Assembly (NCBI RefSeq): GCF_014635285.1
Contig: NZ_BMCR01000007.1
Span: forward strand, 124,001 to 188,000
Length of the DNA: 64,000 nucleotides
Origin: Stappia taiwanensis
Lineage (GTDB): Bacteria > Pseudomonadota > Alphaproteobacteria > Rhizobiales > Stappiaceae
Direction: 5' to 3'
The position numbers were made by a program, and so were the translations under genes. The notes beneath the pieces were generated by a model that did not search any database, was not told where the DNA came from, and saw nothing but the letters and a program-made list of their open reading frames with translations. Positions 49,979 through 56,777 of the stretch are shown in pieces; the first letter of the stretch is position 1; the number at the start of each line of letters is the position of its first letter.

Positions 49979-52453
<2,475 letters not shown>

Positions 52454-52495
52454 CCCTTTGCAGGCGAAGTTTTCGCCCGCAACGGCAAAGACCCT

Positions 52496-52524
52496 TTGAC
52501 AAAGCCGGCCGCTGCCCCTATACG
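52496..52524 (+). promoter_or_regulatory. Strong sigma-70 promoter of rpsL
   Basis: A consensus TTGACA (52496-52501) is followed after exactly 17 bp by TATACG (52519-52524). The start would be near 52531, giving a leader of about 40 nt. It shows rpsL is transcribed independently of gyrB. Confidence 0.8.
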
Positions 52525-52570
52525 AAGCGGCCAAGACAGCAATCTCCTCAAAAACAAGCCGTATCGCACA

Positions 52571-52942
52571 ATGCCGACAATCAATCAGTTGGTTCGCCAG
52601 AACCGCAAGCCTATCGTCAAGAAGTCCAAGACGCCCGCTCTGAACGGAAATCCGCAGAAGCGCGCCGTCTGCACTCGCGTCTACACCACGACGCCGCGTA
52701 AGCCGAACTCGGCTCTGCGTAAGGTCGCTCGTGTGCGCATGACCAATGGCAACGAAGTGACCGCCTACATTCCGGGCGAAGGTCATAACCTCCAGGAACA
52801 CTCCGTCGTGCTCGTTCGCGGCGGCGGCCCGAACGACCTTCCGGGTGTGCGCTACCGCGTGATCCGCGGTGTGCTCGACACCCAGGGCGTCAAGGATCGT
52901 AAGAAGCGTCGTTCGCTCTACGGCTCCAAGCGGCCGAAGTAA
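52571..52942 (+). CDS. rpsL: 30S ribosomal protein S12, divergent form at a non-standard locus
   Basis: A 123-residue S12 with the core blocks [36 protein letters not shown] and LPGVRY. In E. coli mature numbering it differs at the decoding-centre loops: position 42 is Arg (TTTPRKPNS), and the loop normally read GGRVKDLPG is GGGPNDLPG, so 85 is Gly, 86 Pro and 87 Asn. Position 95 after Tyr94 is Arg rather than His. Asp88 and Pro90-Gly91 are kept. Positions 42 and 87 are the classical streptomycin-resistance sites. It has its own promoter and terminator and is not followed by rpsG-fusA-tuf, so it may be a second copy or a relocated sole copy. Codon use (CGT, AAG) suggests high expression. Confidence 0.95.
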
Positions 52943-52981
52943 GCACCAGCTTTTGTTTCTGGGTAGACCTGCTGCGATTTG

Positions 52982-53006
52982 CCCTCGGCTTCGGCCGGGG
53001 GTTTTT
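52982..53006 (+). terminator. Rho-independent terminator of rpsL
   Basis: CCCTCGGC-TTCG-GCCGGGGG forms an 8-bp stem (one T-G pair) with a UUCG tetraloop, followed by TTTTT. It lies 39 bp after the rpsL stop. Confidence 0.88.
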
Positions 53007-53163
53007 CGCGTTTGGCGGTAGCCTGTCGCGCGCTGCGTGCACAGGTTATCCGGAGCAGTGGCGGGTGAGGGGCCTTGCCGGACGTAAGGGGTCCGGAAAT
53101 GCCTGGGGGGCGGGGGCAGCCTTGTCCAGCGTTAGTGGCTGTTCTCGTACTTGCGGGTGCCAG

Positions 53164-53210
53164 CCATCAAAAAAGCCGCCCACGCGATCCGCGGGCGGCT
53201 TTTTTGATGG
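53164..53210. terminator. Bidirectional terminator with an 18-bp perfect stem
   Basis: CCATCAAAAAAGCCGCCC (53164-53181) and GGGCGGCTTTTTTGATGG (53193-53210) are perfect complements across an 11-nt loop. Both strands end in a T6 tract. It serves the minus-strand GcrA-like gene and backs up the rpsL terminator. Confidence 0.9.
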
Positions 53211-53250
53211 TCGGTCTCGGCTTTCGGCCGAGCGCCGGAACGTCTTGTCG

Positions 53251-53463
53251 TCAGGCGGCGATGCGCTTCTGCGCCCGGAAGGCGACCGGGGCGTTCTCGC
53301 GATTGCGACGACGCTCTTCCGGCGAGATGTAGACAAGCGCGCGGTGCTCGTCGCAGTAGGAAACGCCCGGCTCGACGCGGTTGCTGCAGGGGAAGGAATA
53401 GTTGCCGCCGGTGCCTTCGGCCCATTTGCATTGCCCGGAGCGGGGCAGACGAAGATCGGTCAT
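53251..53463 (-). CDS. Small GcrA-like zinc-motif protein (no HTH domain)
   Basis: A 70-residue protein. CKWAEG followed by FPCSNRVEPGVSYCDEHRALVY (core pattern C-x-W ... C ... YC-x2-H ... Y) matches the C-terminal zinc-type domain of the alphaproteobacterial cell-cycle regulator GcrA, the part that contacts RNA polymerase sigma-70. The N-terminal helix-turn-helix that reads methylated GANTC DNA is absent, leaving only about 11 residues before the motif. The C-terminal tail is Arg-rich. It could modulate sigma-70 or GcrA. A good promoter lies 126 bp upstream. Confidence 0.75.
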   Translation of the reverse strand: MTDLRLPRSGQCKWAEGTGGNYSFPCSNRVEPGVSYCDEHRALVYISPEERRRNRENAPVAFRAQKRIAA

Positions 53464-53588
53464 GAGTGCATCCCGTTGGTGTGGCCATCCGGCGGGGGTA
53501 AGCCCCGCGTCACGCCAACGGCGTGGGATGAGCGCTTGGACGACCGGCGAACCCTTGTGGCGCCAGTTCGAAAAAACCAGAGAGCTGT

Positions 53589-53617
53589 AATATAAGTGTC
53601 ATGCTGCACTGCGGCAA
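53589..53617 (-). promoter_or_regulatory. Probable sigma-70 promoter of the GcrA-like gene
   Basis: On the minus strand TTGCCG (53612-53617) is followed after exactly 17 bp by TATATT (53589-53594). The imperfect palindrome TGCTGCACTGCGGCA (53603-53617, plus-strand reading) overlaps the -35 element. Confidence 0.6.
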
Positions 53618-53643
53618 GCTTGGCCTCGGTATAGGTGCCATGC

Positions 53644-53659
53644 TTGCACTGCAGTGCAA
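53644..53659. promoter_or_regulatory. 16-bp perfect palindrome, candidate operator
   Basis: TTGCACTGCAGTGCAA is fully self-complementary. Its TGCACTGC core recurs at 53605-53612 in the imperfect palindrome over the promoter; the two centres are about 43 bp (four helical turns) apart, which fits cooperative binding of a dimeric regulator. Confidence 0.55.
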
Positions 53660-53801
53660 CAATCCGACGGCGATGGGGAACGCCGGCAACCATAACGAGG
53701 AGCCTGGTCGGAGCCCTTCCGGCAAGATGGAAAGAACGCCAGCCCTTCTTGTTTGTGCAAGCTCCCGGGCGAAAACCGCCCAGGTTTTGCGGCGACAGGC
53801 G

Positions 53802-54314
53802 TCAGTCCTTGTTTTCCCGCAGGTTCGTGACCGTGCGCCGGTTCTGCGCCCGGCATTCCTGTTCGGGGCAATCCCGCACCTTGCGCTGGGTCCCATAGCC
53901 CTTGGCCCAGAGGCGGCGCGGGTCCACGCCCTTGCTGATCAGATAGGCCATGGTGGCGTTGGCCCGGCGCGTGGACAGGGCCTTGTTGTCGGCGGCGCTG
54001 CCCGGGTCGTCGGCGAAGCCCTGGATCTTGGCGTACCAGTGCCGGTTTTCCTGGAGCCACGCGGCCTGCTTGTCGAGCGTCATGCGCGCGGTGTCATCGA
54101 TCTCCGCCGAGCCGGCGCTGAAATAGGTGCGCCGGCCGACGTTCAGCATGAAGGCTTCTTCGCTGCCGGGGGCGATCCTGGCGAAACCGACCGCCGGTGC
54201 GTTGGTCACATCCGGGGTCGCGACCTGCTCTGTGGTGTTGCAGCCGGCCAGCAGGGCAGCGCAAGCGGTCAGCATCAGGGCCCGTTTCACCCTGCTGGTG
54301 GCAAATGACGTCAC
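53802..54314 (-). CDS. OmpA/Pal-family outer membrane lipoprotein
   Basis: A 170-residue lipoprotein. The signal peptide ends in the lipobox LLAGC (cysteine about residue 25). The OmpA-like peptidoglycan-binding domain includes YFSAGSAEID, QGFADDPGSAADN, and the binding-site segment LSTRRANATMAYLISKGV (about 115-132). It probably tethers the outer membrane to peptidoglycan. The tail has two extra cysteines in RDCPEQECR. A GTG start with GGGAG upstream gives 54314. It follows the transpeptidase gene by 26 bp, so the two form an envelope pair. Confidence 0.88.
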   Translation of the reverse strand: MTSFATSRVKRALMLTACAALLAGCNTTEQVATPDVTNAPAVGFARIAPGSEEAFMLNVGRRTYFSAGSAEIDDTARMTLDKQAAWLQENRHWYAKIQGFADDPGSAADNKALSTRRANATMAYLISKGVDPRRLWAKGYGTQRKVRDCPEQECRAQNRRTVTNLRENKD

Positions 54315-54340
54315 GATGAAATGCTCCCTGAGATCGGTGG

Positions 54341-55003
54341 TCAGCCTTTGCTGGATTCGGGGCCGGACCCGGCGCCAAGGTGTTCCAGCACCAGAACGCG
54401 GGTGCCCAGCGGGCAGCGCTGGTACAGATCGACGATATCTTCCGGGAACATGCGAATGCAGCCGGACGAGACGTCCGAGCCGATGCTCCAGGGCTCAAGC
54501 GTGCCGTGGAGCCGGTAGCCCGTGTCGCCGCCCTTGTCGTTGTAGAGGTAAAGCGCGCGCGGCCCGAGCGGATTGTTCGGCGCGCCGCCCTTGACGAGCC
54601 GCGGCAGGTCCGGTTGACGCTTCAGCATGTCGGGTGGCGGCACCCAGCGCGGCCACAGGGCCTTGCGCTTGATCTGGGCGCGGCCGTACCATTTGAAACC
54701 GTCCCGGCCCACACCGACCCCGTAGCGCAAGGCGGTGTTGTTCTCCCAGATCCAGTAGAGATAGTGGTTGCGGGTGTCGATGACGACAGTGCCCGCCGGC
54801 TCTTCCGAATAGTATTTGACCATCTGCCGTTGCAGATGCGGCTTGATCACCTTGAAATTGGTGCGCCGGTAGGAAAAGCCGTTATCGGCAGTGGCGCCAT
54901 CGAACCATTTGGACGACGCCAGTGCCGGCACCGGCAGGCTTGCCGCTGCCAGCAGGGCGCCGGTACCGGCAAGCACGCTACGTCGTGACGGATGGCTGCT
55001 CAT
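54341..55003 (-). CDS. L,D-transpeptidase (YkuD family), exported
   Basis: A 220-residue YkuD-domain enzyme. The catalytic motif is HGTLEPWSIGSDVSSGCIRM (residues about 176-195) with the active-site cysteine. The signal peptide is twin-arginine-like (RRSVLAGTGALLAAA) and ends at ALA, so Tat export is possible. Such enzymes form 3-3 cross-links or attach lipoproteins to peptidoglycan; the adjacent OmpA-type lipoprotein is compatible with envelope remodelling. GGGGGGAG before the ATG supports the start. Confidence 0.92.
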   Translation of the reverse strand: MSSHPSRRSVLAGTGALLAAASLPVPALASSKWFDGATADNGFSYRRTNFKVIKPHLQRQMVKYYSEEPAGTVVIDTRNHYLYWIWENNTALRYGVGVGRDGFKWYGRAQIKRKALWPRWVPPPDMLKRQPDLPRLVKGGAPNNPLGPRALYLYNDKGGDTGYRLHGTLEPWSIGSDVSSGCIRMFPEDIVDLYQRCPLGTRVLVLEHLGAGSGPESSKG

Positions 55004-55109
55004 GCCGTTCTCCCCCCTCGGCCGGATTGACTGCTCAACTCACGCGCGTCAATCGTGACCGCAATCGATCTCTGAGTCGCAGATATTACGGTTCATTCTG
55101 ACGCAAAGG

Positions 55110-56777
55110 TCAATCCTTGGCCGTCTCCTGTCCGCCGGTTTTGGCCCCGGCCGCAGCCAGTTCGGCAGCGGTATCAAGGTCGAGCCGTGCCGGCGGGCCG
55201 ATCTCCACCTCGGCGCGCTGGTCCTGGTGCCGGTCGATCAGCGCTCGGGCGCCGGTGTCGCCTTCCAGTTGCGTGAGCGCATCGAAGAAGGCGCGATCCC
55301 AGAGGACCGGATTGCCCCGTTTGCCTTCGGCGGTGGCGACCACAATGGGTTTTCCGGCCCCGGGCGCATAGGCGGCGATTATCCGGTCGATGGCCTCCGC
55401 CGTGATGCCGGGCATGTCGGCAAGCAGGATCAGCGCGGCGTCGGTGTCCGGCGGCAGCGCGGCGATACCGGTACGGATCGAGCTGGCCATGCCGTCCGCG
55501 TGATCCGGATTGTGCACGAGAATAGCGTCGAGGCCGTTCAGCGCCGCGCCCACCGCATCGGCCATATGGCCGGTAACCACGGTCAGGGAGGAAATTCCGC
55601 TGGCCAGTGCTGCCCTGGCGGCGATGCGCACCAGCGGTTCGCCATCGAGCCGGGCCAGCAGCTTGTTGGTCTCGCCGGCGCGGCTGGAGCGGCCGGCCGC
55701 AAGCAGGATCGCTGCGACCTTGCGTGGGATCGGTGCGGCGTGATCCATGGCGTTCCCGCCTGTCTCCGCTTTTGCTGCAGGCGCCGCCGCGCGCGGCTGT
55801 GGCCGGGTGCCGATCTCCATCAGCAACCCACCAACACCGAGACCGGTGATGTCCTCCGGCCGGACCGGCAGATCCGCCATCATCCGGTCGAGAACCCAGT
55901 CGAAGCCGTTTTCCCTGGGGCTGCGGGCACAGCCCGGGGCACCGAGCACCGGTAGGCCTGAGAGCGCGCCAACAAGCAGCAGGTTGCCCGGGTCCACCGG
56001 CATGCCGAAATGCACCACCGTGCCGCCGGCGGCCTCGATCGCGGCCGGGATCACGTCCTTGCGGTCGACAATGGCCGAGGCGCCGAAAACGAGCAGCATC
56101 TCCGCGCCCTGGGCGGCAAGCGCCGTGAGTGCGGCGGCGACCGCCGCCGGATCATGGGCGACGCGCTCCTCGCCGATCAGCGTCGATCCGGAAACGGCAA
56201 GCCGCGCCTCGGTGATCCGGCGGGTCTTGTCGAGAACGGAGGGCTTCAGATGCGGGAGCTGTGTGGCCACCAGCCCGACCTTGCGCGGGCGGAAGGGGGC
56301 AAGGCGCACGGCCGCTCGCGCCGCCGTCTCGGCCTGGGCGATGAGCGGTTCGGCGACGGCGAAGGGAATGATCTTGGCAGTCGCCACCATCCGTCCCCGG
56401 GTGACCCGGGCGAAGGCGGGCAGCGTGGCGAGGGTGATCGCCGGATCGATCCGGTTGGCCGCGTTGACGGCTGGGGGATCGACCAGGAGAAGGCCGTCTT
56501 CCGCCGCAAAGAGGTTGACCCGGCCGGTGAAGGGCGGGTCGAGACGCAGGCCGCCGCCATCGGCAGCCCGGGCAAGCCGCTCGGCAGCCACATCCTCGTG
56601 GCAATCGCCGGGCTCCAGCCGGGCAACGACGACCTCGGAAATGCCAGTGGCCGCGATCAGGGCGATATCGGCGTCACTCAGGCGTTGTCCTTTTCGGAAG
56701 GTGGCGCCCTCAAGGCGCAGCGAATGGGCGAGCAGCGCCCCTTCCGCCTCGATTGTCGCCACCGGACCGAATTTCAC
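55110..56777 (-). CDS. Molybdopterin-binding and MocA-like nucleotidyltransferase fusion
   Basis: A 555-residue fusion. The N-terminal part (residues about 1-335) has a MoeA/MogA-like molybdopterin-binding domain with LVFGASAIVDRKD and LGAPGCARSPRENGFDWVL. The C-terminal part (about 350-545) is a MobA-type transferase with VAAILLAAGRSSRAG and LLADMPGIT, most like MocA, which attaches CMP to molybdopterin for xanthine-oxidase-family enzymes. Its GTG start overlaps the stop of the XdhC gene by four bases, so they are coupled. Confidence 0.88.
   Translation of the reverse strand: MKFGPVATIEAEGALLAHSLRLEGATFRKGQRLSDADIALIAATGISEVVVARLEPGDCHEDVAAERLARAADGGGLRLDPPFTGRVNLFAAEDGLLLVDPPAVNAANRIDPAITLATLPAFARVTRGRMVATAKIIPFAVAEPLIAQAETAARAAVRLAPFRPRKVGLVATQLPHLKPSVLDKTRRITEARLAVSGSTLIGEERVAHDPAAVAAALTALAAQGAEMLLVFGASAIVDRKDVIPAAIEAAGGTVVHFGMPVDPGNLLLVGALSGLPVLGAPGCARSPRENGFDWVLDRMMADLPVRPEDITGLGVGGLLMEIGTRPQPRAAAPAAKAETGGNAMDHAAPIPRKVAAILLAAGRSSRAGETNKLLARLDGEPLVRIAARAALASGISSLTVVTGHMADAVGAALNGLDAILVHNPDHADGMASSIRTGIAALPPDTDAALILLADMPGITAEAIDRIIAAYAPGAGKPIVVATAEGKRGNPVLWDRAFFDALTQLEGDTGARALIDRHQDQRAEVEIGPPARLDLDTAAELAAAGAKTGGQETAKD

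Follow-up and report, generated by a model that had tools for sequence, protein, structure and literature searches.

A conserved 70-residue protein of the Stappiaceae and its likeness to the SID of GcrA

The gene and its conservation in the Stappiaceae

The window analysed here, a stretch of 64,000 nucleotides of Stappia taiwanensis DNA, contains a small stand-alone gene on the minus strand at 53251..53463, with its ATG at 53463, its last codon at 53254 and its stop at 53251-53253. The product of 70 amino acids has a core of residues 12-45 (53329..53430, minus strand), delimited by alignments, that resembles the sigma-interacting domain (SID), the sigma-70-contacting end of the cell-cycle regulator GcrA. 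This is followed by a charged tail, residues 46-53 (53305..53328, minus strand). Genes that carry such a domain and no DNA-binding half are referred to here as SID-only.

A promoter-like site, TTGCCG-17-TATATT, is present about 125 bases upstream of the ATG (53589..53617, minus strand). It is a consensus match only, and is the one such site found, compared with a mean of 0.2 in shuffled sequences. On the other side of the gene, an 18-bp perfect inverted repeat with an 11-base loop and A/T-rich outer ends was recognized by eye at 53164..53210, between the convergent rpsL-like and SID-only genes. Judged by its sequence, it is likely to be a two-way intrinsic terminator; a terminator scan limited to loops of 3-8 bases does not list it. 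No RNA element was found at gathering score in 52900-54400.

The convergent neighbour at 52571..52942 (plus strand) is what we take to be a gene for a ribosomal protein S12 (rpsL)-like product. Upstream there are two genes on the minus strand, one at 53802..54314, presumably encoding an OmpA-like lipoprotein, and one at 55110..56777, which we take to be of the molybdenum-cofactor type (xdhC_mobA). The conservation of six window neighbours was checked across 23 named loci with 4-kb flanks. The xdhC_mobA-type gene lies upstream of the SID-only gene and shares its strand in all 23, and the lipoprotein-type gene is beside the SID-only gene in 12 of them. A gene that we take to be L,D-transpeptidase-like is also near it in 12 of the 23, and rpsL and gyrB, again named on our own assumption, are both within the fetched stretch in nine. 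The gap from the SID-only gene to rpsL is about 0.3-0.4 kb in two of these nine loci (L035 and L040) and about 1.8-2 kb in the other seven (L036-L039, L041-L043).

The sequence-only reading, which gave no strand, had described a product of 70 residues, and the conserved start and length of the frame, its low dN/dS and its presence across the Stappiaceae show it to be a real gene. In a set made up of the window gene and those of the 23 named loci, in which some proteins are identical and none come from the divergent genus g6, all 24 products are 67-71 aa long and all 24 genes have an ATG five codons ahead of a conserved LPR. The window protein is 100% identical to that of Stappia indica SN13-18 (L035). 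Values of dN/dS were 0.021-0.173 in 13 of 14 pairwise comparisons, with saturated dS in the remaining one (first 56 codons). The motif GANTC does not occur in the 300 bases upstream of 20 of the 24 genes, the window gene among them; because these sites are mostly absent, the SID-only gene seems to be no GcrA/CcrM target itself.

Exactly one SID-only match (E <= 1e-12) was found in each of 61 Stappiaceae genomes from 7 genera, the searched family (f1) being taken as Stappiaceae from the named loci (Stappia and Breoghania belong to the Stappiaceae, Hyphomicrobiales). An earlier, smaller search had given a strong match in 49 of 49 genomes. The gene is conserved, single-copy and under strong purifying selection, and is probably a vertically inherited core gene of the Stappiaceae.

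Likeness to the C-terminal domain of GcrA

The pattern C-x-W ... C ... YC-x2-H ... Y of GcrA had been claimed for the protein from the sequence, and is seen as C12-x-W14 ... C26 ... Y36-C37-x2-H40 ... Y45, with K13 and V44 completing the start and end of the core. Is this a likeness to GcrA, or only the spacing of a few metal ligands? Profile searches place the protein with the GcrA C-terminal domain and with no better family. In a Pfam scan, positions 110-154 of the 155 in PF07750 (GcrA) were matched at E 6.8e-4, with a score of 20.5 bits, under the curated cut-off of 26.9. The NCBIfam model NF050816 (GcrA) matches in the same way, with 19.9 bits against a curated cut-off of 280. PF07750, alone among the families, was matched by all 26 aligned Stappiaceae members (best E 7.6e-6). 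The family profile aligned with 27 GcrA C-domains at 98.9% in hhalign, over 48 columns in which C-x-W ... F ... C ... YC-x2-H ... Y is common to both, the E of 1e-17 being that of a single profile pair and not a database E-value.

A model was made from these 27 domains, the cores of which came from collected loci. Of 28 distinct cores, L080 was excluded as nearly a copy of L078. In 24 of the 27 a DNA-binding domain is recognized by pattern in the same frame and in two more (L098 and L099) by profile; the L100 row is a shortened copy with the same core as the full-length copy in the same stretch. The window protein scores 44.5 bits against this model and the 26 family members 41.7-50.9. Shuffles holding all Cys and His residues reached at best 20.0 bits (4980 scored of 5000) and full shuffles 10.6 bits (4666 scored of 5000), so the likeness to the GcrA domain exceeds the metal-ligand pattern. 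Of the window's 842 stop-to-stop frames of at least 40 aa, the one that holds the gene scores 43.0 bits and the next best 5.2.

Searches of PDB sequences ranked two GcrA sequences first, weakly (E 0.077/0.28 and 0.046/0.17), with an unrelated third match at E 0.6 and 0.28, respectively. Two other small zinc domains were considered and rejected as the identity of the protein. WRC (PF08879) gave the window protein 14 bits where 28.6 are needed (E 0.042) and matched 17 of the 26 members (best E 0.017), and zf-TRM13_CCCH (PF11722) left the window protein unmatched and matched nine of the 26 (best E 0.0083). Neither Crl nor RbpA models were among the Pfam or NCBIfam matches to E 10.

The 48 aligned columns also bring out differences from GcrA (PF07750; NF050816; PDB 5YIX, 7YE1, 7YE2). 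The SID-only protein is without the N-terminal DNA-binding domain and the linker, and its first two cysteines stand one residue closer together. Of the 11 positions that are invariant in the 27 GcrA C-domains, eight (C, W, G, F, C, Y, C, H) are kept in all 26 family rows. The other three are not: P7 of GcrA is replaced by A15 in 26 of 26 rows (and by Thr in L070-L072 of genus g6), A37 gives way to another fixed residue, V44, and at the place of P11 the residue varies (G, A, T or S, with Pro in one row, L055). Since these three are not retained, the docking face may have changed. The charged tail reads I-x-x-E-E-R-R-R in 26 of 26 rows and has no fixed counterpart motif in the 27 GcrA C-domains; in genus g6 (L070-L072), which is absent from the 26 rows, it is different, E-T-P-E-Q-R-K. 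Residues C12, C26, C37 and H40 are candidate metal ligands, and zinc is suggested as the metal by the C-C-C-H pattern alone.

Two AlphaFold models were made. That from a Stappiaceae-only alignment has a mean pLDDT of 64.1; its best Foldseek match has an E of 5.8, and no chain reached Z >= 2 among the three aligned of five. Adding GcrA domains to the alignment gave a mean pLDDT of 59.5, and this model returned only three PDB chains, all of them GcrA and all weak (E 2.2-4.7, Z 2.1-2.4), with a bias toward GcrA from the GcrA rows in its alignment. The tail forms part of a predicted helix, 48-57, in both of these low-confidence models, which are too poor to serve as proof of a SID fold.

The descent of the protein was considered as well. 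A tree of 46 columns puts the Stappiaceae SID-only family on a long branch, with a support of 0.505 for the split of the family, and gave no resolution as to descent from either GcrA paralogue. Searches for phage and plasmid relatives returned one phage and two plasmid records, none of them with an E below 6, and no viral relative was confirmed among 15 stretches matching patterns from the Stappiaceae alignment. One phage family of PHROGs, phrog_12262, of unknown function, matched over its C-terminal part at E 0.0043. On these comparisons, we regard the protein as a SID-only relative, homologous to the SID of GcrA. It is not a GcrA, since the defining DNA-binding half is missing and its scores are under both curated cut-offs.

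GcrA, and further SID-only genes in the Alphaproteobacteria

The sequence-only reading had held that there is no DNA-binding domain, which agrees with the conserved start of the gene and with searches of the DNA nearby. With the GcrA DNA-binding domain of the same genome as query, tblastn against 52901-55100 gave a best E of 1.6, and a profile of 22 GcrA DNA-binding domains had no match at E <= 1 to any frame of 51501-56500. Is there a full-length gcrA elsewhere in the genome? Two copies were found, at C3:616464-616979(-) and C3:366515-367021(+), and there are two full-span PF07750 matches in all 14 genomes drawn from the genus of the window. GcrA is above the cut-off in all 61 Stappiaceae genomes, as a full-span match in 60 and as two pieces of one frame in the other (G043).

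In an order-wide search, the best matches per Stappiaceae genome were 80.8-139.4 bits in the 20 of 20 drawn, which include sources of the query alignment. Outside the Stappiaceae the best among the matches listed was 44.9 bits, in a frame of 183 aa. At least 177 of the 397 genomes matched. A class-wide search matched at least 64 of 385 genomes, all except that of the window having at most 39.9 bits among the matches listed. Each of these searches scored up to 15 candidates in a genome, and distant SID-only genes may be missed. No gene was called SID-only on its frame length by itself, because the stop-to-stop frames of the Stappiaceae genes themselves span 70-225 aa.

SID-only genes were found outside the Stappiaceae in at least six genomes of four other alphaproteobacterial families: L127 (G492), L129 (G426), L135 (G704), L136 (G611), L087 (G485) and L143 (G710). 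All but L087 came from searches with PF07750 and with proteins. The GcrA DNA-binding-domain profile found nothing at E <= 1 in these six stretches. Like the Stappiaceae gene they encode about 63-73 aa with one GcrA-type SID; unlike it, they are from other families and have a different sequence round the Trp. Five of the six genomes also have GcrA matches that take in both halves of the family. The exception is G426, which is 98% complete and has no PF07750 match at E <= 1 besides its SID-only gene.

Four of these genes form a second SID-only family of 63 aa, from two alphaproteobacterial families (L129:1271-1459(-), L127:1543-1731(+), L135:1501-1689(-) and L136:1501-1689(-)). They have the motif R-G-C-L-W-P-[ML]-W ... 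YC-x2-H ... and an A-A end, and the other three are 56-63% identical to L129. Two of the four were scanned with PF07750 and scored 24.8 and 25.0 bits, slightly under the cut-off; hhalign aligned this family with GcrA domains at 96.7% and with the Stappiaceae family at 88.9%, the latter a distant likeness only. The other two are lone genes over the PF07750 cut-off, L143:1441-1659(+) with 41.5 bits and L087:2004-2195(-) with 29.9 bits. L087 adjoins what is presumably a groEL-like gene, and in other genomes of its family the matches listed are in frames of at least 109 aa. It came from 13 class stretches with mostly short frames, of which 11 are GcrA with a DNA-binding domain and one, L088 (G447), was set aside as too weak at just 10.3 bits.

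Three short SID frames are undecided: L118 (G136), L121 (G085) and L124 (G052), with 62.0, 52.5 and 29.3 bits. Their stretches have no GcrA DNA-binding domain at E <= 1; their starts are unsettled, so they were excluded from the count. L126 and L128, which are weaker or oddly framed, were likewise excluded, and L132 was left out.

The SID is also found behind other N-termini, at L119:849-1364(+), L122:1140-1763(-), L123:900-1484(+), L125:1544-2131(-), L131:783-1421(+) and in L120. Pfam scans of L119, L122, L123, L125 and L131 gave HTH matches below cut-off, except for HTH_23 in L131 (25.3 bits, with a cut-off of 24.6). The GcrA DNA-binding-domain profile is silent (E <= 1) in L119, L120 and L123 and very weak in L122 and L125, and matches L131 at E 6.5e-7. 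From their sequences, the products of these six may possibly be new sigma-recruiting regulators. Together with the SID-only genes of other families, the joining of the SID to HTH-like N-termini indicates that it acts as a module.

Possible roles of a SID without a DNA-binding domain

GcrA reads methylated promoters through its N-terminal HTH DNA-binding domain and is, to our knowledge, one of few activators acting through region 2 of the housekeeping sigma factor. What could its SID do alone? We lean, tentatively, towards the SID-only protein being a ligand of sigma-70 region 2 that does not bind DNA and that also competes with GcrA. It would fold round a metal held by C12, C26, C37 and H40, and would dock on region 2 of the housekeeping sigma as the SID of GcrA does. 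Because it cannot hold DNA, its action on RNA polymerase would precede the choice of a promoter, like that of Crl on sigma-S. In the Stappiaceae its seat would overlap that of GcrA; the more SID-only protein there is, the fewer polymerases would bear GcrA and the less would methylated GcrA promoters respond. At other promoters it would exert an effect of its own on sigma region 2, either positive or neutral. In favour of this reading are the homology to the SID beyond the Cys/His pattern, the eight kept positions, with all four Cys/His and the Trp among them, the single SID-only gene alongside GcrA in all 61 Stappiaceae genomes and the purifying selection. What weighs most against its simplest forms is the three unkept positions and G426; further points against it are the PF07750 score under the cut-off, the poor models and the distance between the SID-only families.

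Known ligands of region 2 offer precedents. GcrA binds sigma region 2 through residues 108-173, and RbpA and Crl act there too (PMC7403470). Crl activates as a region-2 ligand without contact with DNA, whereas GcrA, RbpA and GrgA use further, DNA-touching domains (PMC6917491). A lone GcrA-type SID would share the layout of Crl, but on the housekeeping sigma. The likeness to Crl is thus one of proposed mode, that of a small ligand of region 2 with no DNA contact (PMC6917491); Crl itself is gammaproteobacterial, acts on sigma-S and has no Pfam match in the SID-only protein. In the actinobacterial RbpA a SID also targets sigma region 2, and the SID alone gives partial activation; RbpA carries further domains (PMC7403470), and the SID-only protein has no match to RbpA in Pfam. 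GcrA, unlike Crl, activates via its DNA-contacting domain (PMC6917491), so a bare SID may do little alone.

Has the domain kept its hold on sigma-70 at all? The protein may instead be a repurposed fold, a metal-binding SID scaffold that has given up sigma-70 and binds another protein or RNA, with the charged tail as its new working surface. We consider this somewhat doubtful, though a serious alternative. The loss of three of the 11 GcrA-invariant positions, a tail that is not a fixed motif in GcrA, the PF07750 score under the cut-off, the long branch in the 46-column tree with its split support of 0.505, and the strong differences between SID-only genes of separate lineages are all in keeping with it, and the unkept positions together with G426 leave room for it. 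However, beyond Cys and His the protein still shares a Trp, a Gly, a Phe and two Tyr with the GcrA domain, and the joining of the SID to HTH-like N-termini in other genomes points to a lasting role in transcription.

Alternatively, competition with GcrA could be the whole of its function. A dedicated antagonist would occupy the GcrA site on sigma-70 with no activity of its own, as a natural dominant-negative by which the methylation-dependent cell-cycle programme is made stronger or weaker. The absent DNA-binding half, the presence of full-length GcrA in 61 of 61 Stappiaceae genomes and the GcrA matches over both halves in five of the six other SID-only genomes are what this predicts. The co-occurrence in the Stappiaceae is expected anyway, however, because GcrA is nearly universal in the order (at least 109 of 111 genomes), and G426 has a SID-only gene but no GcrA match, so competition cannot be the general role. 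We think such an antagonist unlikely.

An adaptor, with the SID docked on sigma-70 and a partner DNA-binding protein on the tail, would recruit polymerase to promoters beyond the reach of GcrA. The SID is joined elsewhere to N-termini with mostly weak HTH matches, and if a protein of that kind were split, the result would resemble the Stappiaceae gene; but the sole one of the six checked neighbours that is present in all 23 named loci is the gene we take to be of the molybdenum-cofactor type, which is not DNA-binding, and we regard this explanation as very improbable. It is hardly credible that an unrelated small zinc protein of the C-C-C-H type resembles the domain by chance, to which the sub-threshold WRC (E 0.042) and zf-TRM13_CCCH (nine of 26 members) matches might point, given how far the Cys/His-keeping shuffles fall short of 44.5 bits; a spurious ORF is ruled out by purifying selection and presence in all 61 Stappiaceae genomes.

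A wider proposal, which we put forward as speculative and on balance doubtful, is that the SID of GcrA is a free alphaproteobacterial module. It would have become fixed in at least two separate lineages as a stand-alone, DNA-binding-free cofactor of sigma-70 that re-tunes the GcrA/CcrM methylation circuit, and would elsewhere have been joined to new DNA-binding domains as sigma-recruiting regulators.

In the literature covered on stand-alone GcrA-type SID proteins, on GcrA in Stappia and on GcrA more generally, of which most subscription papers are outside, no such protein is described among the papers listed, and its absence from print cannot be claimed on that coverage. As a natural, single-copy SID of 70 residues without a DNA-binding domain, the protein is a clean tool for separating sigma docking from DNA reading. 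If it binds sigma-70, there would be an extra layer of control on the GcrA circuit, one that goes unmentioned in the literature covered here. These observations suggest that in the Stappiaceae a tiny SID-only protein may be a new way of tuning GcrA or the main sigma factor.
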